From NCBI GenBank assembly GCA_013043915.1, contig JABEVH010000071.1:1-33788 (forward strand): a stretch of DNA of 33,788 bases, in the 5' to 3' direction. The notes below the pieces were generated by a model, which was not told the DNA's origin, did not search any database, and saw only the letters and a program-made list of their open reading frames with translations. The DNA comes from Pseudomonadales bacterium. GTDB lineage: Bacteria; Pseudomonadota; Gammaproteobacteria; Pseudomonadales; Moraxellaceae. Shown piece after piece: positions 1,031 to 18,722 of the stretch (position 1 is the first letter of the stretch; each line of letters opens with the position of its first letter). A program made the translations under genes and the position numbers.

Positions 1031-1327
1031 TCAGTGGGCGTTGGGATGCTCGGCGATGAACTGTCGTAGCGCGGTGTCAATGCGGGTCTGCCAGCCTTCG
1101 CCAGCTGACTTGAAATGTTCGACAACCTCATGCGACAGCCGGATGTTGATACGTTCCTTCGGAAACTCAACATGCGGGCGGCCACGAGGTTTGAGCATTT
1201 TCTTGGCGACCTTCTCGCCGAAAATCTGAGGCAGCATTTCGCTGGCCGGACGTGCCTTGGCGAAATCATCCGCTGTCCATTCTGGGTTTTCGTCGTCCAG
1301 TAGTTCAGGGTTGGGCTTTTTGCTCAT
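1031..1327 (-). CDS. brnA: BrnA family antitoxin
   Basis: ENPEWTADDFAKARPASEMLPQIFG...KPRGRPHVEFPKERINIRLSHEVVEHFKSAGEGWQTRIDTALRQFI: typical BrnA; directly downstream of and overlapping brnT. Confidence 0.9.
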   Translation of the reverse strand: MSKKPNPELLDDENPEWTADDFAKARPASEMLPQIFGEKVAKKMLKPRGRPHVEFPKERINIRLSHEVVEHFKSAGEGWQTRIDTALRQFIAEHPNAH

Positions 1328-1580
1328 ACTGTTTCACCTCTCGTTTGTTCGCTTTACGCAGGCTGATGACGTGCACCTTGCCAACGCGGGGTGTGAACAC
1401 CACAGCATAGAGTCGGTCACCGATGTATCCGAATGCCCGATACCGGCGCTCGCCGTAGTCCTTCCGGTCATCTTCTTCGATCACTGCGTCAGACCAATCA
1501 AGCTGCGCGACCAGTGAGAACGGCAGGCCGCGCTCACGTTCGTTTCGCTCATTTTTAGCGGGGTCAAAGCTGATGTCCAT
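1305..1580 (-). CDS. brnT: BrnT family toxin (start reassigned to ATG at 1580; ORF track extends to a GTG at 1598)
   Basis: MDISFDPAKNERNERERGLPFSLVAQLDWSDAVIEEDDRKDYGERRYRAFGYIGDRLYAVVFTPRVGKVHVISLRKANKREVKQYEQ: BrnT signature; overlaps brnA by 23 nt. Confidence 0.9.
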   Translation of the reverse strand: MDISFDPAKNERNERERGLPFSLVAQLDWSDAVIEEDDRKDYGERRYRAFGYIGDRLYAVVFTPRVGKVHVISLRKANKREVKQYEQKAQP

Positions 1581-1587
1581 ACCATTT

Positions 1588-1615
1588 ATTGTACTCACAG
1601 AAAATTGCCTGTCAA
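1588..1615 (-). promoter_or_regulatory. Putative sigma70 promoter of brnTA (-35 TTGACA, -10 TACAAT, 16-bp spacer)
   Basis: Minus strand reads TTGACA-ggcaattttctgtgag-TACAAT. Confidence 0.6.
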
Positions 1616-6745: not shown

Positions 6746-8188
6746 TTAGGGTGTCAGTCCCGGTAAGGGTAGAACAGCTTCCTTGTGTAAAGCCTCCAGA
6801 TGATCGGGATTGAGCCCCAGTGCCACGAGCAGGGTTGGAGCCACTTGTTGTGTAGAGACTCGAGTATGAACAAGGTGCTGCGGGTGTTGGCTTGCATCCA
6901 CCACCAGTAAAAGCACATGCCGATCATCACGCCCATACCCGCCATGCTCAGCCAGTTTGGTATCTCCGGCATGGCCGTAGATGACGCCGTGCTGGCTGAT
7001 AATTACGATGTCGGGGCTACGTTCATCCCGTGGATAATTTAGCGGGGCGGCTTGGGCATCCAGAACATGCAGGATACCCAGTGCATGGCGCTGTTGCAGT
7101 AAAGCGTGTATCACCACGGACTTGTACTGGGCACCTTTTAGCCAGATCAAACCACCATCATCAGCCGTCAAATGCGCCAGCGCACCGGGGGCTGCATTTT
7201 CGATGACTTGCTTGAGCGCTTGGGTTTCAAGATGCCTGACCAAGATTGAGTTTATCGGGCTATTACCATGCTTGGCCGATATAATAATGAACGTGTTATC
7301 CAGCAGATGCTGTTGTTGCAATGTGTTTTTCAACTCGCTAAGACGCTGATCAACATCCTCGAAAGCCCGCTGTAAAGCCGGCTGAGGCCGCGAGCCATGA
7401 TAGCCGGCCAGTTTTTGCGCAACGCTGACCACCTGCATATTCATGCCCATAAGTTCCGGCACGGTACCCGGGTGCTGCCCGTCATGTCCTAATCCTTTGA
7501 GTTCATAGAGCAAGGCTTGCATCTTCAGGTGGTCATACTCGGCGGTTCGATCGATGGATGCCGTGATTTTATCCTTGGGATTGTCATGCTTGCCCTCGAA
7601 ATTGGCACCAATCTCGGGTGTGTACAAGTCATCCACGGCATGGCCATGCGGACCAAGGACTATTTCATAAGCAGGGTGCTTATCTATCCAGGCCGTTTTT
7701 CCTCCTGCCGCCTGCACAACATCAAAAATCGTATTGACCTTGAGGTAGGCATGCGGATAAACCGGTGAGCAACCATGGTCAGGATCGCGCGGCAGCTTAT
7801 TAGGATCTAGGGCTGAGTTGGTTGTATTGTCGATAGTCTCATCATACGCAACTTCAGTGCCACGAACACTACAATCTGAACTCGGGGCAGCGAGCAGGTG
7901 GTTGTACGTAACGTCATACCAGATGCCCGTCGTCGTCGGTTGGCCGCCCGTAATCAGAGCTATCAACCCTGGAAAAGAGTCAGCAGGCGCAGGTGTATAG
8001 GCTTGATCAAAACGCACACCGCTTTTAGCCCAGCTAGCCAGAGTGGAGTGCGGTGCATGTTTTATAAATGCATGCAGATCCTCTGCATGCATCCCGTCAA
8101 TACTGATCAGAATGGCATGCTGATAGGTCTGCGCCTGAGCACCGAGAGCAAGGCCAAATAATCCAGCGAGTAGTCCTGTCGCTTTCAT
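6746..8188 (-). CDS. Alkaline phosphatase superfamily / type I phosphodiesterase-nucleotide pyrophosphatase-like protein, exported
   Basis: Signal peptide; ILISIDGMHAEDL; PADSFPGLIALITGG; WIDKHPAYE; IIISAKHGNSPI; AEHGGYGRDDRHV. Confidence 0.85.
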   Translation of the reverse strand: MKATGLLAGLFGLALGAQAQTYQHAILISIDGMHAEDLHAFIKHAPHSTLASWAKSGVRFDQAYTPAPADSFPGLIALITGGQPTTTGIWYDVTYNHLLAAPSSDCSVRGTEVAYDETIDNTTNSALDPNKLPRDPDHGCSPVYPHAYLKVNTIFDVVQAAGGKTAWIDKHPAYEIVLGPHGHAVDDLYTPEIGANFEGKHDNPKDKITASIDRTAEYDHLKMQALLYELKGLGHDGQHPGTVPELMGMNMQVVSVAQKLAGYHGSRPQPALQRAFEDVDQRLSELKNTLQQQHLLDNTFIIISAKHGNSPINSILVRHLETQALKQVIENAAPGALAHLTADDGGLIWLKGAQYKSVVIHALLQQRHALGILHVLDAQAAPLNYPRDERSPDIVIISQHGVIYGHAGDTKLAEHGGYGRDDRHVLLLVVDASQHPQHLVHTRVSTQQVAPTLLVALGLNPDHLEALHKEAVLPLPGLTP

Positions 8189-8189
8189 G

Positions 8190-8846
8190 TCAGTTCTCAC
8201 TAAGTCGATGATAGACCCACAAGCTAAAGGGCAGGTGCTGTCCCTTCAGATTGCCAGGAGGCGCAGGATAATGGGCGGTCATGACCGCCTGTACAGCGGC
8301 ATCATCCAGTAAACGGTAGCCGCTGCTTTCCAGAACCGTAACATTGCTGACATTCCCATCCAGGAAGGTAAAGCCAACCCGGGTACGGCCATGCATATGC
8401 GAAATGCGGGCAGCATACGGGTAGACCACGGCTGATTGCACAGCACCTAAAACCTGATCATTGAAGGTGGCTAGAATGTGCGGATCCGGTTGTGGTGGAG
8501 CAGGGGGTGTTATCGGTGCTTTAGGTGCAGGTTGCTGGGTTTTCTGGGTAACAACCTTAGGAGGAGTGACCACCGGCACCGGCGTTGGCGTGTCAACGGT
8601 CTTGGGTAAAGGCACAGGGGGCTGCACCGTTGGCACAGGCCGCGGCGCCACCGGGTGAGCGACATGTACCGGGGGTTTGACCGGTGGTTTTACCTCAGGC
8701 TTGGGCTGTTGTGGCAAAACCGGAAAGCTCAAGGTAACCGGTATTGCAGGTGGCTCAACATGTTGGTGCGCCTGAGCCATGGCCCAGATCAAAGCCAATA
8801 TCATGCCGCCCTCTAGCAGCGAGGCTAGCAGGGCAGCTTTGGACAT
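8190..8846 (-). CDS. tonB: TonB family energy transducer (probable start at 8846; ORF track starts at 8885)
   Basis: N-terminal TM helix, long Pro-rich PKPEVKPPVKPPV...PPAPPQPDP region, TonB C-terminal domain HGRTRVGFTFLDGNVSNVTVLESSGYRLLDDAAVQAV; RBS-like aaaggtgat before ATG 8846. Confidence 0.88.
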   Translation of the reverse strand: MSKAALLASLLEGGMILALIWAMAQAHQHVEPPAIPVTLSFPVLPQQPKPEVKPPVKPPVHVAHPVAPRPVPTVQPPVPLPKTVDTPTPVPVVTPPKVVTQKTQQPAPKAPITPPAPPQPDPHILATFNDQVLGAVQSAVVYPYAARISHMHGRTRVGFTFLDGNVSNVTVLESSGYRLLDDAAVQAVMTAHYPAPPGNLKGQHLPFSLWVYHRLSEN

Positions 8847-8853
8847 ATCACCT

Positions 8854-9252
8854 TTAAGGATGGATTTCACGTGCTGCCAGACCAATTTGTGTTACTCCCG
8901 CGTGACGGCAAGCATCCATCACCGTCATCAGATGTTGTAAAGAGGTATCCCGGGCTCCTGCGATGGTGACCACGGTATCGCGCGCATGCCCGCCCTGCTG
9001 CAGATAGGCCGTCAGTTGGTCAGGGCTTAAGGTATGGGCATCCACCTCAATGAGTCCCTGTGCGTTCAAGTTGATAATGACCTGCGGATGAGGCAATGTC
9101 GTGGTGCTACTGCTGCTGGCCAGGCTTGAAGACAAGCCTTTCGAAGGGATCATATGCAGGGTGAACATGATGAAAAATATCAACAAAAAGAACATGATAT
9201 CAATCATCGGTATGATTTCTATACGCGCTTTGCGCGGTTCAAAGTAACGCAT
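8854..9252 (-). CDS. exbD: ExbD/TolR family biopolymer transport protein
   Basis: RIEIIPMIDIMFFLLIFFIMFTLHM; EVDAHTLSPDQL; adjacent to exbB and tonB. Confidence 0.92.
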   Translation of the reverse strand: MRYFEPRKARIEIIPMIDIMFFLLIFFIMFTLHMIPSKGLSSSLASSSSTTTLPHPQVIINLNAQGLIEVDAHTLSPDQLTAYLQQGGHARDTVVTIAGARDTSLQHLMTVMDACRHAGVTQIGLAAREIHP

Positions 9253-9918
9253 TTAAGCGATCTCCGGCTCAAGTGTGCGCTGACGCGTTCCCTGTGCGTG
9301 CCGTGGAGCCTTGACGCGATTGAGCAGCATGACCTTGATGGTTTCAAGTTGATGCATAACGACGCGAACACGGTTGTTCAAGCCATTAAAGGCGATCAGA
9401 CCAAGAATGGCGATGAACAAGCCGCAAGCGGTCGCTAACAGGGCTTCAGCAACACCGCCCGTCACTTGGGTAGGTGCATTATTGGCGTCCGACAACACGG
9501 AGAATGCGTTAAACATCCCGATGATGGTGCCGAGCAGGCCGAGCAAGGGGGCTAAGGTGACAATGGTGTCGAGTATCCAGAGGAAACGATCCACATGAGG
9601 AATTTCACGCATGATGGACTCTTCCATGCGTGCTTCTGCATGATCATGGTCAGGTTCGCGTCGCAGCTGTATGGCCGTATTGATCAATCTCTCCTGCACG
9701 CAGCCGGTATAACGGTCAGACAGCTCTTTGAGCACCGGCAGAGCAGGTTCATGATGTTCGTCAAGTTGAGCCATCAGTGATACACCCGCGCGCAGGGTCT
9801 GGTAGAGAAACCAGCTGCGTTCGATAACGATGGTGAGTGCTACCAGTAAAAGCAGAGCCATGAAATAGATGATGCCGCCAGATGCCTGAGCGATATGTTG
9901 CAGTGACTGTAATGACAT
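9253..9918 (-). CDS. exbB: ExbB/TolQ/MotA family proton channel protein
   Basis: LWILDTIVTLAPLLGLLGTIIGMFNAFSVL...VTGGVAEALLATACGLFIAILGLIAFN. Confidence 0.93.
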   Translation of the reverse strand: MSLQSLQHIAQASGGIIYFMALLLLVALTIVIERSWFLYQTLRAGVSLMAQLDEHHEPALPVLKELSDRYTGCVQERLINTAIQLRREPDHDHAEARMEESIMREIPHVDRFLWILDTIVTLAPLLGLLGTIIGMFNAFSVLSDANNAPTQVTGGVAEALLATACGLFIAILGLIAFNGLNNRVRVVMHQLETIKVMLLNRVKAPRHAQGTRQRTLEPEIA

Positions 9919-9999
9919 AGTGTGGACACGCCGAGCATGAGGTCATGCCGGTCGGAGCTGTACCTGGCGTGTACTCCTCAACGCTCCTGGTTTATAAAG

Positions 10000-10028
10000 G
10001 CACATGCCCACACGAGGTGGGCATGTGC
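10000..10028. terminator. Strong intercistronic hairpin between the TonB-dependent receptor gene and exbB
   Basis: Perfect 12-bp inverted repeat GCACATGCCCAC-acgag-GTGGGCATGTGC. Confidence 0.5.
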
Positions 10029-10042
10029 TGCCTAAGTAAAAC

Positions 10043-12313
10043 TTAGATTTTGGTACTGATCGATGCCGTTATTGAACGTCCTGGCTGAGTCCAGAACAGG
10101 ATGTCACCCTGCGGAGCATTGCCAGCGGTGTAGTAAAGACCTCCGTGGTTGAACAAATTGTCGACTTGCAGCCCAACCTTGGTTGCCCTGTCTTTACCGA
10201 AACTGTAACTGGTTGACAAACTGGCGATGGAGTACCCAGGCATGGAGTAATTGGTAATACTTGGCCCATTGGGGTACAAGGATCCATTCTGCCCGGTGTA
10301 ATACTGGCCTACATATTTATCAAGCAAGGAGGCATAAATCCCACTCTTGTCATAGATGATGCCGCCAGCCAAAGTCCGTACCGGGGTGTTGGGTAACCAG
10401 TTGCCCTGACTATCATGGGCGCTGTTGACGGAACCGTTGGTGTAGAGGCTCAAGCCTGAACCCACATAGTACGTGGCCTGGCCCTCAATGCCCTTGTATT
10501 GAGTTGTGCCGCTGGCATTGTAATAGGCGGTCGTAGTGCCTAATTGTTCAGACAAAATTTCATTGCTGAAGCGAATTAGGTACAGGTCCATGTCGGCAGC
10601 AAAGCGGCCATTTTTGAAGGCAGTGCCCCACTGATAGTTCGTGGTTGACTGCGGATTTATGTTGGTTTGTGCTGGCTGATTGACATAGAAGAAATTCAGC
10701 TTAGGAGCCATAAAGCCTTCGGCAGCCTGGACATACGTTGTCCATGACGAGGTGATGCTGTAATGAGCATCCAGAGAAGGCAAAGCCTTGCTCCAGGTTT
10801 TGCTGTAGTTAAGCGGTGCTGATGTATTGGCATTAATGGCCGCATCAATACTTCTGGAGTAGGACACATATTTTAGCCCTGGCCGCACCGTCAGGTCATC
10901 GGTGGGTTTCCATGCAAACTCAGCATAGGGCTGAAAGGTGTTCCAGCTGTCCGCCATGTTCCAGTTATAGGAGTTTGGTGTGGTCACTGACGTGCCACCA
11001 ACCGTATAGTTAGGAGCTCCGCCCTGGGTCCAGTCTACATTCTGGTTGGAACGCGTGTTGTACTGGTGATCGAACCATATCCCTACGTTCAGATCTCCTG
11101 AATTCAGGTGATCTGAGGCGCGCAGAGCGTCACCGACGGAACGGTATTGCATCGTCATGCTGACGCCGGGTACATCATTAGCACCCAATGATGTGCCTAA
11201 CCCGCCACCCGCACCGCCAGGAGTCAGGTTAGAAAATTGCGGATTGGATTCTTGATTGAACGGCAACCCAAATGTTTGGCCATTATACCCTATATGGCGA
11301 TATCCAAAGGTATAGAGCTTATTATCGATAGACCAGCTGCCTTGCTGGCTATTGATGCCGATATAGGACATGTCGCCGTTGATTTGGTCACGGTTATAGC
11401 CGACGAAGGTTTGGCTGTTGGGGTTATTGCTTAGACCAAAGTTATTCCCGTACATCTGCATTTGTGTCAGGGTTGCGCCCGAAGGAGGATTCTGGTCGAG
11501 CTGGTTGACCATAGACATGACCGTCACGACGGTATTGTCCGTGATAGGTTTGATCATCTTGAAGATGGCATTGGTGCGCCGTTGGTGCGCATAGGTTAAG
11601 AATCCGTCGGATGACACTTGTTTGACATCCAGGTAAGCCGAGCCGTCTCCCCAGTTATGCATGGTGCCGGTGTCAAACTCAGCACCCACCAACTTGGTAT
11701 TGAAGCTGCCTGAGCTGACATAGGGGGATACACCGGCTTCCGCCGAGGGGTCTTTGGTGGTATTGGCAATATTGCCGCCGAAGGTAGAGTAGCCGATGGT
11801 GGCAGCACTACCCGGTCCACGATCTACCGTGATTGAGCCCAGATCCTGGGCCATGAAATAAGAAGTGGAGTGGTGAGTAAAGTCATTGGAATCACCGATA
11901 GGAATACCATCAAACGTCACGTTGTACTGTCCGTCCTGGAATCCGCGGATACTTAAGCCTTGCGTTTCCATCAAGCCATTTCCATTGGGGTCAACATTCC
12001 ACACACTGGGAGCAATGGCAACGATATCCGTATAGTTAGAGGCTGGACCGGCATTTTCTTCGATGTAGTGCTGAGAAATAATTGAAGCGGGTTCAGTTTC
12101 TGACAAGGATGCCTGTGTAGGTGCCTGAGCAGGTGCTGACTGAGGGTTGTCAGAGGAGCTGCTATTGTTGACATCGTTGGCATCATTTTGCACCGTGCCT
12201 AAGTCCACTTGGGCGGTGCCAGCGGCCATGGCCTGAGTACTTATGACCAGCATGCTGGTGATAACCAGCTGAGCTAGCGTGTTCCTGCGAAATGTTTGAA
12301 AGTTCATGCTCAA
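10043..12313 (-). CDS. TonB-dependent outer membrane receptor
   Basis: Signal peptide; plug-like LSIRGFQDGQYNVTFDGIPIGDSNDF...SITVDRGPGSAATIGYSTFGGNIANTTKDPS; barrel with terminal GLQVDNLFNHGGLYYT...PGRSITASISTKI. Confidence 0.92.
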   Translation of the reverse strand: MSMNFQTFRRNTLAQLVITSMLVISTQAMAAGTAQVDLGTVQNDANDVNNSSSSDNPQSAPAQAPTQASLSETEPASIISQHYIEENAGPASNYTDIVAIAPSVWNVDPNGNGLMETQGLSIRGFQDGQYNVTFDGIPIGDSNDFTHHSTSYFMAQDLGSITVDRGPGSAATIGYSTFGGNIANTTKDPSAEAGVSPYVSSGSFNTKLVGAEFDTGTMHNWGDGSAYLDVKQVSSDGFLTYAHQRRTNAIFKMIKPITDNTVVTVMSMVNQLDQNPPSGATLTQMQMYGNNFGLSNNPNSQTFVGYNRDQINGDMSYIGINSQQGSWSIDNKLYTFGYRHIGYNGQTFGLPFNQESNPQFSNLTPGGAGGGLGTSLGANDVPGVSMTMQYRSVGDALRASDHLNSGDLNVGIWFDHQYNTRSNQNVDWTQGGAPNYTVGGTSVTTPNSYNWNMADSWNTFQPYAEFAWKPTDDLTVRPGLKYVSYSRSIDAAINANTSAPLNYSKTWSKALPSLDAHYSITSSWTTYVQAAEGFMAPKLNFFYVNQPAQTNINPQSTTNYQWGTAFKNGRFAADMDLYLIRFSNEILSEQLGTTTAYYNASGTTQYKGIEGQATYYVGSGLSLYTNGSVNSAHDSQGNWLPNTPVRTLAGGIIYDKSGIYASLLDKYVGQYYTGQNGSLYPNGPSITNYSMPGYSIASLSTSYSFGKDRATKVGLQVDNLFNHGGLYYTAGNAPQGDILFWTQPGRSITASISTKI

Positions 12314-12358
12314 AGCTCCATCCCCAAAATTATTGACCCGTCTTTAGATCAGCCGTTA

Positions 12359-12377
12359 AGGAGACAAGCTGTCTCCT
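12359..12377. promoter_or_regulatory. Perfect dyad upstream of the TonB-dependent receptor gene (candidate operator)
   Basis: AGGAGACA-agc-TGTCTCCT, 46 nt upstream of the start codon at 12313. Confidence 0.45.
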
Positions 12378-12462
12378 ATCAAACGAGGCGGGAGCATAGG
12401 GGGGAAAGATTACAAAATGGCTACAGTTTTGTTTCAGTTTAGGGAGTGAGTAACGGCCAAGC

Positions 12463-13494
12463 TCAGATTAGGTTGGGATACCAACGCTGCATGGCTGCCT
12501 TTTTGTACAGTTCGCGCGGCTCTGCTTGCGGTAACCAGGCTGGGCCAGCAGCAGCTGCTTGTAGCAAAAAAGTCAGCAAGGTCAGATGACGGCGCAGAAC
12601 GCGCTCAAGTCGATGGGGTAGGACGGGATTAAAATGGCCGAATAAGCTGAACAACTGTCGTGGGTTTTTCTGTATCCAGGTCCAGGAACCCATTTCCAGA
12701 GTAAAGGGCAGGAAAACACCGGAGTGCTGCGTTTGGTGTTCTTCGTAGAGATAGTCCCATAAGTCGCCATGCGTACAGTAAATGACGGATTGAGGTTCCA
12801 TCTGGTAAAAACTATGTTGCGGGTAGGTATCATTGAACAGCTTGCGTAGGGCAAATGCCTCAGGCAGGTGAGGAGCGGGGCTATGTTGACGGGCATAGGG
12901 AAACCATATCCTGTCTAAGAGCCCAAAACCTGAGTGACAATCGATAGCGATCGATAAGGGGCGTCCGAATAGATGGTCACGCATGGTCTGGCATAAAACT
13001 GAGGACTCGACCTCCATCGGTGCTCCCGCGAGTCCTCGGTACCAAGGTAAATGAGGGGAGTAACGATGACCGCCTAACAGAAAGGGGACTTTGCCCTGGG
13101 CATCGATAGGTGCATTGCGCATCAGGTCTACACCATGACCATTGCTGCGTGTCCGTCGCATCAAACCGACAGGGTTAACTGCTGGCATAAACACGACATG
13201 CACTCGCTCCAACAAGGTTTGCAAGCTGGTGTCCCAGCGCATACGCGCAATCAGGGAACGTAAAAATGCAAGCACTACATCGGTACCTATTCGCTCCAGT
13301 CCATGGACCCCGCCGATAAAAGCGACGGCGGGAGAACTGGGATCTGAACTGCCTAACGTGATCAGGGGTAGAGGGAAACTTAAGCCATCGGCTTCCACCA
13401 AGCCTGCCGTATCAAGCTGAATTAAATCATGAACCGGCTCAATCATATCAGCTAGCTGATCCTGAAGATGAAAGCCGGTAGCCTGGGTGGTCAT
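12463..13494 (-). CDS. M14-family zinc carboxypeptidase / succinylglutamate desuccinylase-like protein
   Basis: AFIGGVHGLERIGTDVVLAFLRSL (HxxE), VVFMPAVNPVGLMRRTRSNGHGVDLMRN, IAIDCHSGFG, LPFTLEMGSW. Confidence 0.8.
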   Translation of the reverse strand: MTTQATGFHLQDQLADMIEPVHDLIQLDTAGLVEADGLSFPLPLITLGSSDPSSPAVAFIGGVHGLERIGTDVVLAFLRSLIARMRWDTSLQTLLERVHVVFMPAVNPVGLMRRTRSNGHGVDLMRNAPIDAQGKVPFLLGGHRYSPHLPWYRGLAGAPMEVESSVLCQTMRDHLFGRPLSIAIDCHSGFGLLDRIWFPYARQHSPAPHLPEAFALRKLFNDTYPQHSFYQMEPQSVIYCTHGDLWDYLYEEHQTQHSGVFLPFTLEMGSWTWIQKNPRQLFSLFGHFNPVLPHRLERVLRRHLTLLTFLLQAAAAGPAWLPQAEPRELYKKAAMQRWYPNLI

Positions 13495-13503
13495 GCAGGG
13501 GTC

Positions 13504-13992
13504 TCAGTAAAGCAGGCCAAAACCTATGGAAGCATTGTCCATTTCGGGGTGAGCATTGTAACGCTCGATAGCAAAAGTAAAGCTGATACGGTTCTCCAGG
13601 GTCAGGCTATAAGGAGAGCGATGATTACCTGTGAAGAAATCATAAAGCTCAGTCATGTTAAAATCATGACGTAGTCGCTGAACGGCGCCCTTGCTACCGT
13701 AACCTGCTTGTAACTGCAAAATATTGGCAAAACCTATGCCTGCATAGGCATTGGCCGTTTTTTCATGGGTGAAATCCTTGTAAGCCACGCCGACGTTGAC
13801 AAAGGTCCTCGCATAGTTGGTGTCGAGAAAAAATCCTGACCCCAGGCCGCCATCTCGTGTGGTATCAGATCGACCAGCAGAGAAGAGGACTCCGGGTATC
13901 AGCGATGGATCAAGCCCAAGTCCATTATCAGCCCATGTATAATCGCAACATGATCCTATAATAAGTAGCAGGTAGATGAAGGTATTCTTCAT
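13504..13992 (-). CDS. Hypothetical exported protein, possibly a small outer-membrane beta-barrel
   Basis: Signal peptide and glycine/aromatic alternating segments, terminal NASIGFGLLY; family not identified. Confidence 0.5.
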   Translation of the reverse strand: MKNTFIYLLLIIGSCCDYTWADNGLGLDPSLIPGVLFSAGRSDTTRDGGLGSGFFLDTNYARTFVNVGVAYKDFTHEKTANAYAGIGFANILQLQAGYGSKGAVQRLRHDFNMTELYDFFTGNHRSPYSLTLENRISFTFAIERYNAHPEMDNASIGFGLLY

Positions 13993-14188: not shown

Positions 14189-14656
14189 GTGCAAAACAAG
14201 ACGCTGGGCCAGCAGTTGGCTTCAACCACCAAAGTATGGCGACATGTATTGGATGCTCGTCTACAGCCGCTGGGCCTATCCCAGGCGAAATGGTTATGCT
14301 TGCTCGAACTTATACGTGCTGACGAGGAACTGACGCAAAGTGAACTTGCGCAGCGCCTAGGGATTGAGCCAGCTACGCTCGTGCGTTTGCTGGATCGCCT
14401 AGAGGCGCACGGGTGGGTAGTAAGGCAGGCTGATATCCATGATCGACGTAGTAAACGCATTCGGTTAACCGAACGATCGAGAGCCATAGCCATCAAGGTG
14501 CAGCAAACGGCAGATGATCTGCGTGTTGAACTCGTGCGGGGGATTCCTGCGGAGGATATGGCCATTTGCTCACAAGTGCTGAGCATGATTGATCAGCGTG
14601 CACGGATTTTGCTCTCACCGGGTACTGACCTGCTAGCTGATGAAGGTGAACAGTAG
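14189..14656 (+). CDS. MarR family transcriptional regulator (GTG start)
   Basis: ELTQSELAQRLGIEPATLVRLLDRLEAHGWVVRQADIHDRRSKRIRLTERSRA: canonical winged helix-turn-helix. Confidence 0.93.
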   Translation: MQNKTLGQQLASTTKVWRHVLDARLQPLGLSQAKWLCLLELIRADEELTQSELAQRLGIEPATLVRLLDRLEAHGWVVRQADIHDRRSKRIRLTERSRAIAIKVQQTADDLRVELVRGIPAEDMAICSQVLSMIDQRARILLSPGTDLLADEGEQ

Positions 14657-14685
14657 TTTTCTGGTTTGTCCTGTTCTGTTCAGAA

Positions 14686-14701
14686 TGTCGTTAATACGAC
14701 A
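14686..14701. promoter_or_regulatory. Dyad in the MarR-FAD dehydrogenase intergenic region (candidate MarR operator)
   Basis: TGTCGT-taat-ACGACA. Confidence 0.45.
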
Positions 14702-14762
14702 GTATTTGGCTTCGTCTCATGATTGACTTGCTGATAGTTGATACAGCCATAAGGAGTCAACC

Positions 14763-16346
14763 ATGATCAAAGCTCAGGGGCCAGTCATCATTGGCGGTGG
14801 TATTGCCGGGATGCGAACGGCATTACAATTGCTGCGTCAGGGCTGGAATGTCAAGCTGCTGGATCGCCACCCCATCAATCGTATGGGGGGGCTGGGGCGT
14901 ACAGCCTTTGGAGGTATGGCGCTCAACAGTACCCGTGAACAAAAACTCTGGCGCATCCCCGATACCCCGGAGCGCATGCTGGAAGATTGGCTTAGTTTTG
15001 CAGATTTTAACGCAGATGATATTTGGCCGCGCCGCTGGGCTGAACATTATGTAGAACACTGTCGGCGAGACGTCTATGACGATGTGCGGTCGTTGGGTTT
15101 GAGCTTTATGCCAGCGGTCAACTGGGTGGAACGGGGGCTGTACCGCCCTGGGAACTCGCTACCGCGCTACCATGTACTGTGGGGGACGGGATGGGGACTG
15201 GTTGAGGCTTTGAAGCGTGCCTTGCAGCCTTATCTGGCGTCGCAACGTTTACAATGGCTAGCAGAGGCTGAAGTGCTTGATTTTCAGGAGGTAGTCTCGG
15301 GCTGGGATTTGCGTTACCGCATTCAGGGACAGGAAGAGGAACTGACCACGCCTTTGCTGATATTGGCGGCGGGGGGGTGGACGGGGCAGCTGCAAAAAGT
15401 TAGAGAGTATTGGCCGCGAGCACCCTCGGATATGCTCAATGGTTCGCATCCCTTTTGTAATGGTGCTTTGCATGTTCGCGCCGAGCAGCGTGGTGCTGCG
15501 TTTACTCACCAAGAGGCCATGTGGAATTATGCCGCCGGTATCGCGCATCCCCAGCCTGAGTTTGAAGGCCATGGCCTGAGTTTAATTCCTCCTAAATCAG
15601 CCCTGTGGCTGGACCATAAAGGCCGTCGATTAGGGCCTGAACCCTGGGTAGCTGGTTTTGATACGCATGCCTTATGTCATCGTATGAGTGATTTAGAGCA
15701 GCCTTGGACATGGCAGTTGCTTAACCGCCGTATTGCTTTGCGCGAACTTTCCATCTCAGGTGCCGAGCATAATCCTGATATACGCGAGATCAACCGTTTG
15801 CGTTTTGCTCGTCAGATGGTGATGGGTAATACCTGGCTATACGAGCAGCTACAGCAGTCTCCTGATGTGGTTGTAGCTGAGACCTTGCCGGAACTTGCCG
15901 AAGCAATGAACCGGCGCTTTCCAACAGCTCCGATTGATCTGGCTTGTCTGAGTTCCAGCGTGCAGGGCTATGACCAACAGGTTAGCATGGGGCGGGCGTA
16001 TTGGAATGACGATCAGTTGCGGCGTTTGGATCAGTTAAGGCAGTGGCGCAGTGAGCGCTTGCGAACCTGTTCTGCGGCACCGATACTGCAGTCCGGTTCG
16101 GGACCTTTGGTAGCCATGCGTTTGCGCCTGATTACCCGAAAAAGTTTAGGTGGCATTGTGACCAACATCAATTCACAGGTGATAGGGCGTGATGGTCAGG
16201 CCATGGCGGGTCTGTATGCGGTGGGAGAAATGAGTGGATTTGGTGGCGGAGGGTCATCGGGCCAACGTAGCCTGGAAGGAACCTTTATCGCCGGTTGTCA
16301 TCTGACTGCCTGGCAGGCAGCTCGTCACATAGGGAGCGGCGCGTGA
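14763..16346 (+). CDS. FAD-binding dehydrogenase (COG3573 / ketosteroid dehydrogenase-like flavoprotein)
   Basis: VIIGGGIAGMRTALQLLRQGWNVKLLDR dinucleotide-binding motif; C-terminal GIVTNINSQVIGRDGQAMAGLYAVGEMSGFGGGGSSGQRSLEGTFIAGCHLTAWQAA. Confidence 0.87.
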   Translation: MIKAQGPVIIGGGIAGMRTALQLLRQGWNVKLLDRHPINRMGGLGRTAFGGMALNSTREQKLWRIPDTPERMLEDWLSFADFNADDIWPRRWAEHYVEHCRRDVYDDVRSLGLSFMPAVNWVERGLYRPGNSLPRYHVLWGTGWGLVEALKRALQPYLASQRLQWLAEAEVLDFQEVVSGWDLRYRIQGQEEELTTPLLILAAGGWTGQLQKVREYWPRAPSDMLNGSHPFCNGALHVRAEQRGAAFTHQEAMWNYAAGIAHPQPEFEGHGLSLIPPKSALWLDHKGRRLGPEPWVAGFDTHALCHRMSDLEQPWTWQLLNRRIALRELSISGAEHNPDIREINRLRFARQMVMGNTWLYEQLQQSPDVVVAETLPELAEAMNRRFPTAPIDLACLSSSVQGYDQQVSMGRAYWNDDQLRRLDQLRQWRSERLRTCSAAPILQSGSGPLVAMRLRLITRKSLGGIVTNINSQVIGRDGQAMAGLYAVGEMSGFGGGGSSGQRSLEGTFIAGCHLTAWQAARHIGSGA

Positions 16347-18082
16347 AAAAGACAGGAGCATGGTTGGTACGATTTGCCTTGGAACAGTTGGGAGTACGTC
16401 ATACTTTTGGCATACCGGGTGTACATAACACAGAACTTTATGATGAATTGGCGGCTTCTGAATCGTTGCACCCCATCTTGGTGACCCATGAAGGCTGTGG
16501 AGCTTTTATGGCAGATGCCATCTCGCGAACCAGTCAGCAGGTAGGTACCCTGGTTCTGGTACCAGCGGCTGGATTGACCCATGCCGCCAGCGGCATCGGC
16601 GAGGCCTTCCTTGACGGTGTGCCCATGTTGGTTATTTCGGGTGGGATACGCAGCGATTCAGCCTATCAGTTCCAATTACATGATATCGATAATCACGCTT
16701 TTATCGGACCGTTGTGTAAAGCAACCTTCAAGATCAGCCGGCATGCTGAAATTGTGGAAACGTTCTACCGCGCTTTTGACCTGGCATGTAGCGGGGAACC
16801 TGGGCCGGTTTATATCGAAGTGCCCGTTAACCTGCAACTCGATAAGGGAGAGATCCTGGACTTGCCTGCCTATGCCAAACAGGCAGCGGTGAATCCTGTA
16901 GACCGGCAGCATATCCATAAGGCCGCCGAGTTGCTCAAAGCGGCTAAACGCCCAGGACTTTTTCTGGGGTGGGGGGCCGTAGATGCTCAGGACAGTGCTA
17001 TTGCCATCGCAGAGCGATTAGGCGCTCCGGTAGCGACGACGCTGCAAGGTTTGTCAGCTTTTCCGGGGGACCATCCGTTGTCGGTGGGGATGAGTTTTGG
17101 TCCGCATGCGGTACCTGCAGCTAAAATCATGGAATCCTGTGATGTTTTGCTGGCGGTAGGAACGCGTTTCAGTGAAATTGCCACGGGAAGTTTTGGCATG
17201 CCCGTACCTTCGACCCTGATTCATATCGATATTAATCCACGCGTTTTCCATGTGAATTATCCTGCAACCGTCACCGTCCAAGGGGATAGTCGTGAGATTT
17301 TGCCTCTGCTGCTGGAACAGCTGGTTCATATGGGTGGGACACCATCAGCCCATGTTGTTTCAGTACGGGATACGATTGAGCAGGGCCGTCAGCAGTTTCG
17401 TAAATCTTGGGAAGAGCATGCAACTCCTGCAGGAAAAGTTAGCCCAGCAGCCTTCTTTTCAGGCTTGAAGGAGCAAATGACTTCGGATACCTATGTCGTT
17501 GCCGATGACGGCAACCACACCTTCTTGACGGCAGAGCACCTGCCGATCAGAAAGCCGCGGCATTTCATTTCACCGACAGATTTTAATTGCATGGGCTATG
17601 CAGTGCCTGCCGCCCTAGGTGTTAAGCTGATGCATCCTGAGTCGCCGGTGGTGGCTATCGTAGGTGATGGCGCATTTAACATGACGTGTATGGAGTTGTT
17701 GACGGCTGTGCGCGAACGGCTGGGTGTGGTGATCGCGGTATTTGCCGATGGTGAGCTGGCGCAAATCGCGCAGGCTCAGCAGATTCCTTACCGGCGCATG
17801 ACATGTACCGAGCTGCCACGCCTGGATCGTCGTGCTTTGGCCCAGGCTTTGGGCTTGCACTACATCGCACTTTCCCATGATACCGCCGTTGGGGCTGCCT
17901 TGCAGGAGGCATGGGAACGGTCACAAACAGGCCAGCCCGTGCTGCTGGATGTTGCTATAGATTACAGCCGGCCGACTTATTTTACCCAAGGGATACTCAA
18001 GACCAATTTGAAGCGCCTTAACCGAGGGACCCAGGTGCGTATGGTCGGGCGCGCCCTATGGCGGCGCGTGACCATGCGTTAG
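16343..18082 (+). CDS. Thiamine diphosphate-binding protein, acetolactate synthase large subunit-like (GTG start overlapping the upstream stop)
   Basis: GVRHTFGIPGVHNTELYDEL, VTHEGCGAFMADA (catalytic Glu region), central domain, GDGAFNMTCMELLTA; the in-frame GTG at 16343 is preferred over the ATG at 16295. Confidence 0.88.
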   Translation: MKKTGAWLVRFALEQLGVRHTFGIPGVHNTELYDELAASESLHPILVTHEGCGAFMADAISRTSQQVGTLVLVPAAGLTHAASGIGEAFLDGVPMLVISGGIRSDSAYQFQLHDIDNHAFIGPLCKATFKISRHAEIVETFYRAFDLACSGEPGPVYIEVPVNLQLDKGEILDLPAYAKQAAVNPVDRQHIHKAAELLKAAKRPGLFLGWGAVDAQDSAIAIAERLGAPVATTLQGLSAFPGDHPLSVGMSFGPHAVPAAKIMESCDVLLAVGTRFSEIATGSFGMPVPSTLIHIDINPRVFHVNYPATVTVQGDSREILPLLLEQLVHMGGTPSAHVVSVRDTIEQGRQQFRKSWEEHATPAGKVSPAAFFSGLKEQMTSDTYVVADDGNHTFLTAEHLPIRKPRHFISPTDFNCMGYAVPAALGVKLMHPESPVVAIVGDGAFNMTCMELLTAVRERLGVVIAVFADGELAQIAQAQQIPYRRMTCTELPRLDRRALAQALGLHYIALSHDTAVGAALQEAWERSQTGQPVLLDVAIDYSRPTYFTQGILKTNLKRLNRGTQVRMVGRALWRRVTMR

Positions 18083-18084
18083 CG

Positions 18085-18615
18085 TCAGCGGGAGCGTTCG
18101 CGCACCTGAAGTACCCCGATAAAATTGCAGGGGCGGGTGCGTGCATCCAGCTGTTCAGACAAAATGCCTTGCCAGGCCGTGCGACAGGCACCGGTGGACC
18201 CCGGGACACAAAAGATAAGCGTATCGTTGGCCATGCCGGCGAGCGCTCGTGATTGCAGGGTAGAGGTGCCAATTTCCTGCAAGGAGATTTGTCTGAATAA
18301 TTCTCCGAAGCCATCGATGGTTTTGTCAAAAAGCGGTGACAATGCCTCCGGTGTGGAGTCTCGTCCAGAAAAGCCTGTACCGCCGGTACTGATGACGACA
18401 TCGATCTCCGGGTCAGCGATCCAGACAGAAACTTGGGCACGAAGGCGGTAGATGTCATCCTTAATGATTTTTCGGTCAGCCAGTTGATGACCTGCGTCGG
18501 TCAGAGCATTGACCAGGTACGCACCTGAGGTGTCATTTTCAAGTTGGCGTGTGTCGGAAACTGTCAGGACGGCGACATTCAGGGCTACAAATTCAGCAGT
18601 GCTTTGATGACTCAT
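18085..18615 (-). CDS. moaB: Molybdenum cofactor biosynthesis protein B
   Basis: VALNVAVLTVSDTRQLENDTSGAYLVNALTDAGH...DVVISTGGTGFSGRDSTPEALSPLFDKTIDGFGELFR...PGSTGACRTAW. Confidence 0.92.
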   Translation of the reverse strand: MSHQSTAEFVALNVAVLTVSDTRQLENDTSGAYLVNALTDAGHQLADRKIIKDDIYRLRAQVSVWIADPEIDVVISTGGTGFSGRDSTPEALSPLFDKTIDGFGELFRQISLQEIGTSTLQSRALAGMANDTLIFCVPGSTGACRTAWQGILSEQLDARTRPCNFIGVLQVRERSR

Positions 18616-18722
18616 GAGGTGCATGCTCCGGAGCAGAAGTGCATCATCATAACATCGGTGCAGGTGATAGCCGAAGTACGACCTGCTACAGTGTAAGCAT
18701 CGTCGATAGTAAGGGGGCAGTT

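Follow-up and report, generated by a model that had tools for sequence, protein, structure and literature searches.

The two enzymes described here, an oxidoreductase dependent on flavin adenine dinucleotide (FAD) and an enzyme dependent on thiamine diphosphate (ThDP), are encoded side by side in a 33,788-nucleotide stretch of DNA from a Pseudomonadales bacterium of the family Moraxellaceae (contig JABEVH010000071.1; the whole stretch is hereafter called the window), and each has recognizable relatives among described families. For the FAD enzyme, the closest family, matching over the full length, is the NF009472/PRK12834 FAD-binding dehydrogenase (PF00890), and 3-ketosteroid Δ1-dehydrogenase (KSTD; 4c3x) and urocanate reductase/flavocytochrome c3 share its fold (TM-scores by query length of ~0.66–0.73) and FAD-binding motifs. 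For the ThDP enzyme, acetohydroxyacid synthase (AHAS) I (6lpi) and catabolic acetolactate synthase share the fold (TM 0.82–0.91), the catalytic Glu and the GDG motif. A ThDP subfamily other than the window's, the benzoylformate-decarboxylase-like PRK07586 (NF005760, "acetolactate synthase large subunit"), replaces the window's family beside the same clade of FAD enzymes. The FAD–ThDP pair is widely conserved and, as far as our searches reach, undescribed: full-text literature searches, with most subscription journals outside their coverage, returned no description of it, in keeping with the initial annotation, whose author knew of no established pathway combining these families in this order. 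The pair and the regulator gene that precedes it are arranged as follows.

14189–14656, plus strand: MarR/SlyA-type regulator gene (GTG start, 155 amino acids; Pfam MarR_2)
14763–16346, plus strand: FAD_binding_2 oxidoreductase gene (ATG start, 527 amino acids; AAGGAG upstream)
16343–18082, plus strand: ThDP-dependent enzyme gene, acetolactate-synthase-like fold (GTG start, 579 amino acids)

All three genes are co-directional, and in the tetranucleotide GTGA the end of the FAD gene (TGA) overlaps the start of the ThDP gene (GTG). The open reading frames confirm the order, coordinates and overlap given in the initial annotation.

With the ThDP protein as query, a scan of genome contigs yielded 23 relatives (49–90% identity) in records of Gamma-, Beta- and Alphaproteobacteria, Acidobacteriota, Chloroflexota and Bacteroidota, most of which have the FAD gene directly upstream of the ThDP gene. 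The pair itself was found in Acidobacteriota and in Alpha-, Beta- and Gammaproteobacteria, and is probably also present in Chloroflexota, where one record (L021) has a truncated ThDP gene with the FAD gene ~1.2 kb upstream of it; the genes flanking the pair vary among lineages. Gaps within the 31 same-strand pairs, computed from mechanical start codons, range from −116 to +267 nt, and the 4-nt overlap is found in L002, L011 and L053 as well as in the window, counted from its GTG start. For a FAD-centred survey, 295 genomes of the window's order were searched with the FAD protein and the neighbourhoods were read. It revealed 29 loci of the FAD clade in 28 genomes, all but one of them (28/29) adjoining a ThDP gene: 15 have a member of the window's ThDP family (hereafter THDP), 13 have a PRK07586-type gene, and one (L073) has neither, both ThDP genes being present elsewhere in its genome. 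The pairing is thus above chance, and the expectation that a conserved pairing would be found across genomes was borne out, across phyla as well. The ThDP family is rare: of 399 genomes sampled from the phylum, five have it. FAD matches in the same 399 genomes are bimodal, in that eight reach 498 bits or more (the window's own included) and no other exceeds 298 bits. The low-scoring group is the ordinary NF009472-type dehydrogenase, and no ThDP gene was seen near the four NF009472-type loci looked at. Distance matrices of the FAD and ThDP proteins are concordant (Mantel r 0.87, 0/2000 permutations), which is due in part to shared descent. In plasmid records the nearest ThDP relative has 32% identity and the nearest relative of the paired FAD clade ~35%, with no annotated pair.

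The second ThDP partner belongs to PRK07586/NF005760 (762 bits, cut-off 363), and its best solved relatives are benzoylformate decarboxylases. In the FAD tree, rooted on NF009472-type proteins, the PRK07586-paired FAD enzymes form a single clade (support 100) nested among the THDP-paired ones, a topology which implies that the ThDP partner was replaced while the FAD enzyme was retained; the simplest reading of the tree is that this exchange took place once. In four genomes with both ThDP types (G422, G601, G666 and G667) a single clade FAD gene was found, which is of the PRK07586-associated lineage, and their THDP locus stands without a FAD gene; in G666 (L003/L110), a relative of the window, the MarR gene is followed by the ThDP gene, and the FAD gene is absent from that place. 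G506 has retained both FAD–ThDP pairs. The single FAD gene in genomes with both ThDP types suggests that one FAD enzyme is able to serve either partner, and that the functional unit consists of a FAD enzyme of this clade plus a ThDP enzyme. It is extremely improbable that only chance or shared regulation has brought the two genes together and that their functions are unrelated: adjacency is not obligatory, since six of the nine THDP loci that have no FAD gene beside them come from genomes with this gene elsewhere, but nearly all surveyed FAD loci adjoin a ThDP gene, the partner was exchanged within one cofactor class, and the distances co-vary. Because the pair is conserved and its partner was exchanged, the FAD and ThDP enzymes almost certainly act together, in an undescribed and probably acid-degrading pathway.

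The FAD protein is recognized by Pfam FAD_binding_2 (112 bits, E 7e-32) and scores 377 bits against NF009472, below the cut-off of 476. This model straddles the paired clade, because L050 falls below the cut-off (444 bits) and the distant member L012 above it (543 bits). Ten residues (W121, E123, R124, N131, R135, H137, W254, Y256, R459 and K460) are invariant in both NF009472 and the paired clade. NF009472-type sequences nevertheless form a separate clade (tree support 100), have Tyr at window position 498 and Asn at position 502, and lack a ThDP neighbour at the loci examined. The AlphaFold2 model (pLDDT 91.5) matches urocanate reductase, flavocytochrome c3, KSTD (TM 0.71) and cyclohexanone dehydrogenase (8am3; TM 0.74) at 14–19% identity, and the positions of KSTD Tyr487 and Gly491 and of fumarate-reductase Arg544 differ from those structures. 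The NF009472-type Tyr at position 498 aligns with the catalytic loop residue Tyr487 of KSTD; the 44 clade members have A, I, S, M, C, L or V there, mostly one of the first five. Position 503, mostly Ser in the paired clade, aligns with flavocytochrome c3 Arg544. The alignment thus speaks against an identity as 3-ketosteroid Δ1-dehydrogenase, and steroid catabolism was likewise set aside, with the KSTD tyrosine lost and no steroid genes recognized nearby. The Asn at position 502 has become Arg or Lys in the paired clade, and this new basic residue beside the flavin suggests a carboxylate-bearing substrate.

The ThDP protein contains all three TPP_enzyme Pfam domains (N, M and C) and falls under every listed NCBIfam cut-off, the best being TIGR00118 (333 versus 538 bits), with AlsS at 230 versus 510. 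With its three TPP domains, catalytic Glu and GDG motif it is a ThDP-dependent enzyme, and it should be catalytically active because Glu50 and GDG 441–443 (D442) are invariant in 33 sequences of the family. His28 and His113 are also invariant, the latter aligning with the active-site Gln of AHAS. At the usual metal-ligand Asn position (468), the window and its close relatives have Ala and the other sequences Asn, Ser or His; the neighbouring Asp469 is invariant. The position of the AHAS substrate Arg aligns with Ile279 (Ile in 30 and Leu in three of the 33 sequences); the Arg of the AHAS FDDR motif (R377 in At) presumably binds the second 2-oxo acid. With this replacement, ~26% identity to AHAS I and catabolic acetolactate synthase, and the missed cut-offs, the protein does not appear to be a standard acetohydroxyacid or acetolactate synthase. 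The labels "ketosteroid-dehydrogenase-like" and "acetolactate-synthase-like" used in the initial annotation therefore hold for the folds and fail for the active-site signatures, and its expectation that the ThDP protein is no standard catabolic acetolactate synthase agrees with these sequence comparisons.

The AlphaFold2 model of the ThDP enzyme (pLDDT 89) matches AHAS-like folds, as well as BbmA (HKA synthase) and cyclohexane-1,2-dione hydrolase (4d5g; TM 0.84, 23% identity). The first of these matches bears on a biosynthetic alternative, in which the ThDP enzyme would be a carboligase that condenses a 2-oxo acid, once decarboxylated, with a second carbonyl or an acyl thioester, giving an acyloin or α-hydroxy-β-keto acid that the FAD enzyme modifies. 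AHAS I and BbmA are the closest solved structures, and L011 and L013 have a ketosynthase-III-like gene after the pair; the loss of the AHAS substrate arginine, an exchangeable partner from the benzoylformate decarboxylase branch, and the lack of a surrounding biosynthetic cluster in most copies make such a pair unlikely. The match to 4d5g, a likeness of fold only, together with that of the FAD model to 8am3 and KSTD, would fit the degradation of alicyclic rings, with dehydrogenation of a cyclic ketone by the FAD enzyme and hydrolytic opening of a cyclic 1,2-dione by the ThDP enzyme. This route is very doubtful, given that the Tyr487-type position is lost, that other ring-degradation genes were not recognized near the pair, and that the benzoylformate-decarboxylase-like replacement is no obvious dione hydrolase.

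Genes adjoining other copies of the pair point towards acid catabolism. LldD-type 2-hydroxy-acid dehydrogenase genes are present in four PRK07586-type operons (L051, L080, L091 and L092), GMC oxidoreductase genes follow three pairs (L069, L071 and L082), and aldehyde dehydrogenase genes lie opposite four THDP-type pairs (L070, L072, L079 and L081); one member of each was run against a library, and the others were assigned by similarity or by eye. These neighbours and the swapped partner suggest that a carboxylic acid is oxidized to a 2-oxo acid and then decarboxylated. Together with the benzoylformate-decarboxylase-like substitute, they resemble the logic of mandelate degradation (hydroxy acid to 2-oxo acid to aldehyde to acid), and this analogy would favour a catabolic 2-oxo-acid decarboxylase or lyase. 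The reading that we prefer, for which we see about even chances, is a catabolic route for a carboxylic acid in which the ThDP enzyme would be a 2-oxo-acid decarboxylase or lyase, not an acetolactate synthase, and the FAD enzyme would act on the same acid, forming or removing a C–C double bond or oxidizing the substrate. Their genes would specify successive steps, perhaps physically coupled, in a single small route; in some lineages the products of other genes would convert a 2-hydroxy acid or an alcohol into the 2-oxo acid and oxidize the resulting aldehyde. The sequences themselves show the conservation, the exchange of partner, the family placement and the loss of AHAS and KSTD signature residues; we infer the substrate class, the decarboxylase activity, the order of steps and the direction of the FAD reaction from these comparisons. 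The catabolic path put forward in the initial annotation is in part upheld: oxidation plus C–C cleavage fits the neighbours, and steroid-type chemistry does not fit the altered KSTD Tyr487 position. Several points weigh against the carboxylic-acid route. Among solved structures, those closest to the ThDP enzyme belong to carboligases (AHAS I and BbmA), not to decarboxylases; most copies, including the window's, consist of the pair alone, the oxidases and aldehyde dehydrogenases adjoining it only in minority lineages; two Aliikangiella genomes (G661 and G665) have the ThDP gene and no clade FAD gene at E ≤ 1e-60; and to our knowledge PRK07586 members are themselves uncharacterized.

A further alternative would be a route like α-oxidation that shortens branched fatty acids or isoprenoid acids, phytanic acid for instance: the FAD enzyme would reduce or desaturate an enoic acid, a hydroxy-acid oxidase would form the 2-oxo acid, and the ThDP enzyme would split the latter into CO2 and an aldehyde. 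Among the hosts, many are of marine genera (Colwellia, Oleiphilus and Aliikangiella), the FAD fold is that of α,β-unsaturated acid reductases such as urocanate reductase, and hydroxy-acid oxidase and aldehyde dehydrogenase genes lie near some copies. The idea is speculative and very unlikely to be right, with no linked hydroxylase and with Acidobacteriota and groundwater hosts likewise having the pair.

Other genes were observed around individual copies. An unpaired PRK07586 protein without the C-terminal tail described below is encoded beside a GMC oxidoreductase (L106, 5796–9134), which suggests that a GMC–PRK07586 pair exists without the FAD enzyme. Downstream of the pair (bases 7800–12400), L011, L013 and L022 each have a gene for a second ThDP enzyme and one resembling flavin amine oxidases; with the ketosynthase-III-like gene of L011 and L013, these are possibly an extended version of the pathway. 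A gene for a Tle1-like/DUF2235 hydrolase is located near the pair in three families of the order (L066, 9467–10876; L051, 11008–12033; L077, 11982–13391), the first identified by Pfam (T6SS_Tle1-like, with PilZ) and the other two by eye.

Both ThDP partners may end in a similar extension, which in the window is:

17978–18079, plus strand: basic C-terminal tail of the ThDP enzyme, residues 546–579 (model helices and conservation)

The tail, modelled as helices 546–558 and 561–577 and conserved in 38 sequences, extends past the end of the alignment to Escherichia coli AHAS I, to which it is additional. Its amphipathicity is modest in the window (moment 0.40) and higher in relatives. FAD-paired PRK07586 proteins are mostly ~550 amino acids or more, with an added basic tail; four unpaired plasmid-borne members measure 513–516 amino acids, and an unpaired 533-residue protein in G399 has no basic tail. 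The likeness of the THDP and PRK07586 tails is suggestive, and their sequence similarity falls short of significance; their alignment spans 10 columns only (hhalign probability 9%, P 0.004), and a hidden Markov model of one family's tail matches the other's only at E 0.75. The two enzymes might form one machine, with the ThDP enzyme docked through its tail to its FAD partner or to the membrane and with a direct coupling of flavin redox chemistry to the decarboxylation of 2-oxo acids; the PRK07586 lineage would have gained a similar tail on taking over the partnership. We regard this as unlikely; if true, it would represent an undescribed flavin-coupled decarboxylation system.

The regulator is a MarR winged-helix protein (PF12802, MarR_2, 62 bits, E 6e-17; PF01047, 51 bits), scoring 106 bits against NCBIfam SlyA, under the cut-off of 120. 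Its gene is syntenic in L001 and L002. The regulator differs by lineage, being of MarR type in the window and L001–L003, LuxR type in L054 and others, and AraC type in L050 and others, so that MarR did not prove to be a constant part of the system; it appears to be a local regulator of the window's closest relatives, outside the conserved module. The pair is likely under the control of an inducer. Two further features belong to the locus.

14686–14701, no strand assigned: inverted repeat TGTCGTTAATACGACA between the MarR and FAD genes, candidate operator (arms TGTCG/CGACA)
18085–18624, opposite strand: MoCF-domain gene, bounding the unit downstream

The counterpart of the repeat in L001, TGTCGCAAACACGACA, retains the arms with a changed loop, and the repeat was not found in L002; with the palindrome retained in L001 only, it is a weak candidate for a MarR operator. 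Terminator and promoter scans gave no more than shuffle level, and no tRNA was found within the window. Upstream, 12463–13992 encodes an M14 zinc-carboxypeptidase-like and an outer-membrane-like protein, whose synteny with the pair extends to L001 and L002. On the minus strand, 6746–12313 is occupied by a cluster that may serve for dedicated uptake, with genes for a TonB-dependent receptor, TonB/ExbD/ExbB-like proteins and a type I phosphodiesterase (Pfam, 87 bits). A transposase-like open reading frame (357–968) is followed by a BrnT/BrnA-like toxin–antitoxin pair (1031–1598, minus strand), assigned by eye.

The FAD and ThDP genes thus represent a two-enzyme module that is small, sharply bounded and widely conserved, for which database labels are uninformative ("FAD-binding dehydrogenase") or, in the case of the swapped partner, misleading ("acetolactate synthase large subunit"). 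The natural exchange of partners shows which half of the module defines its function, and makes the substrate searchable through simple assays and knock-outs in cultured relatives.

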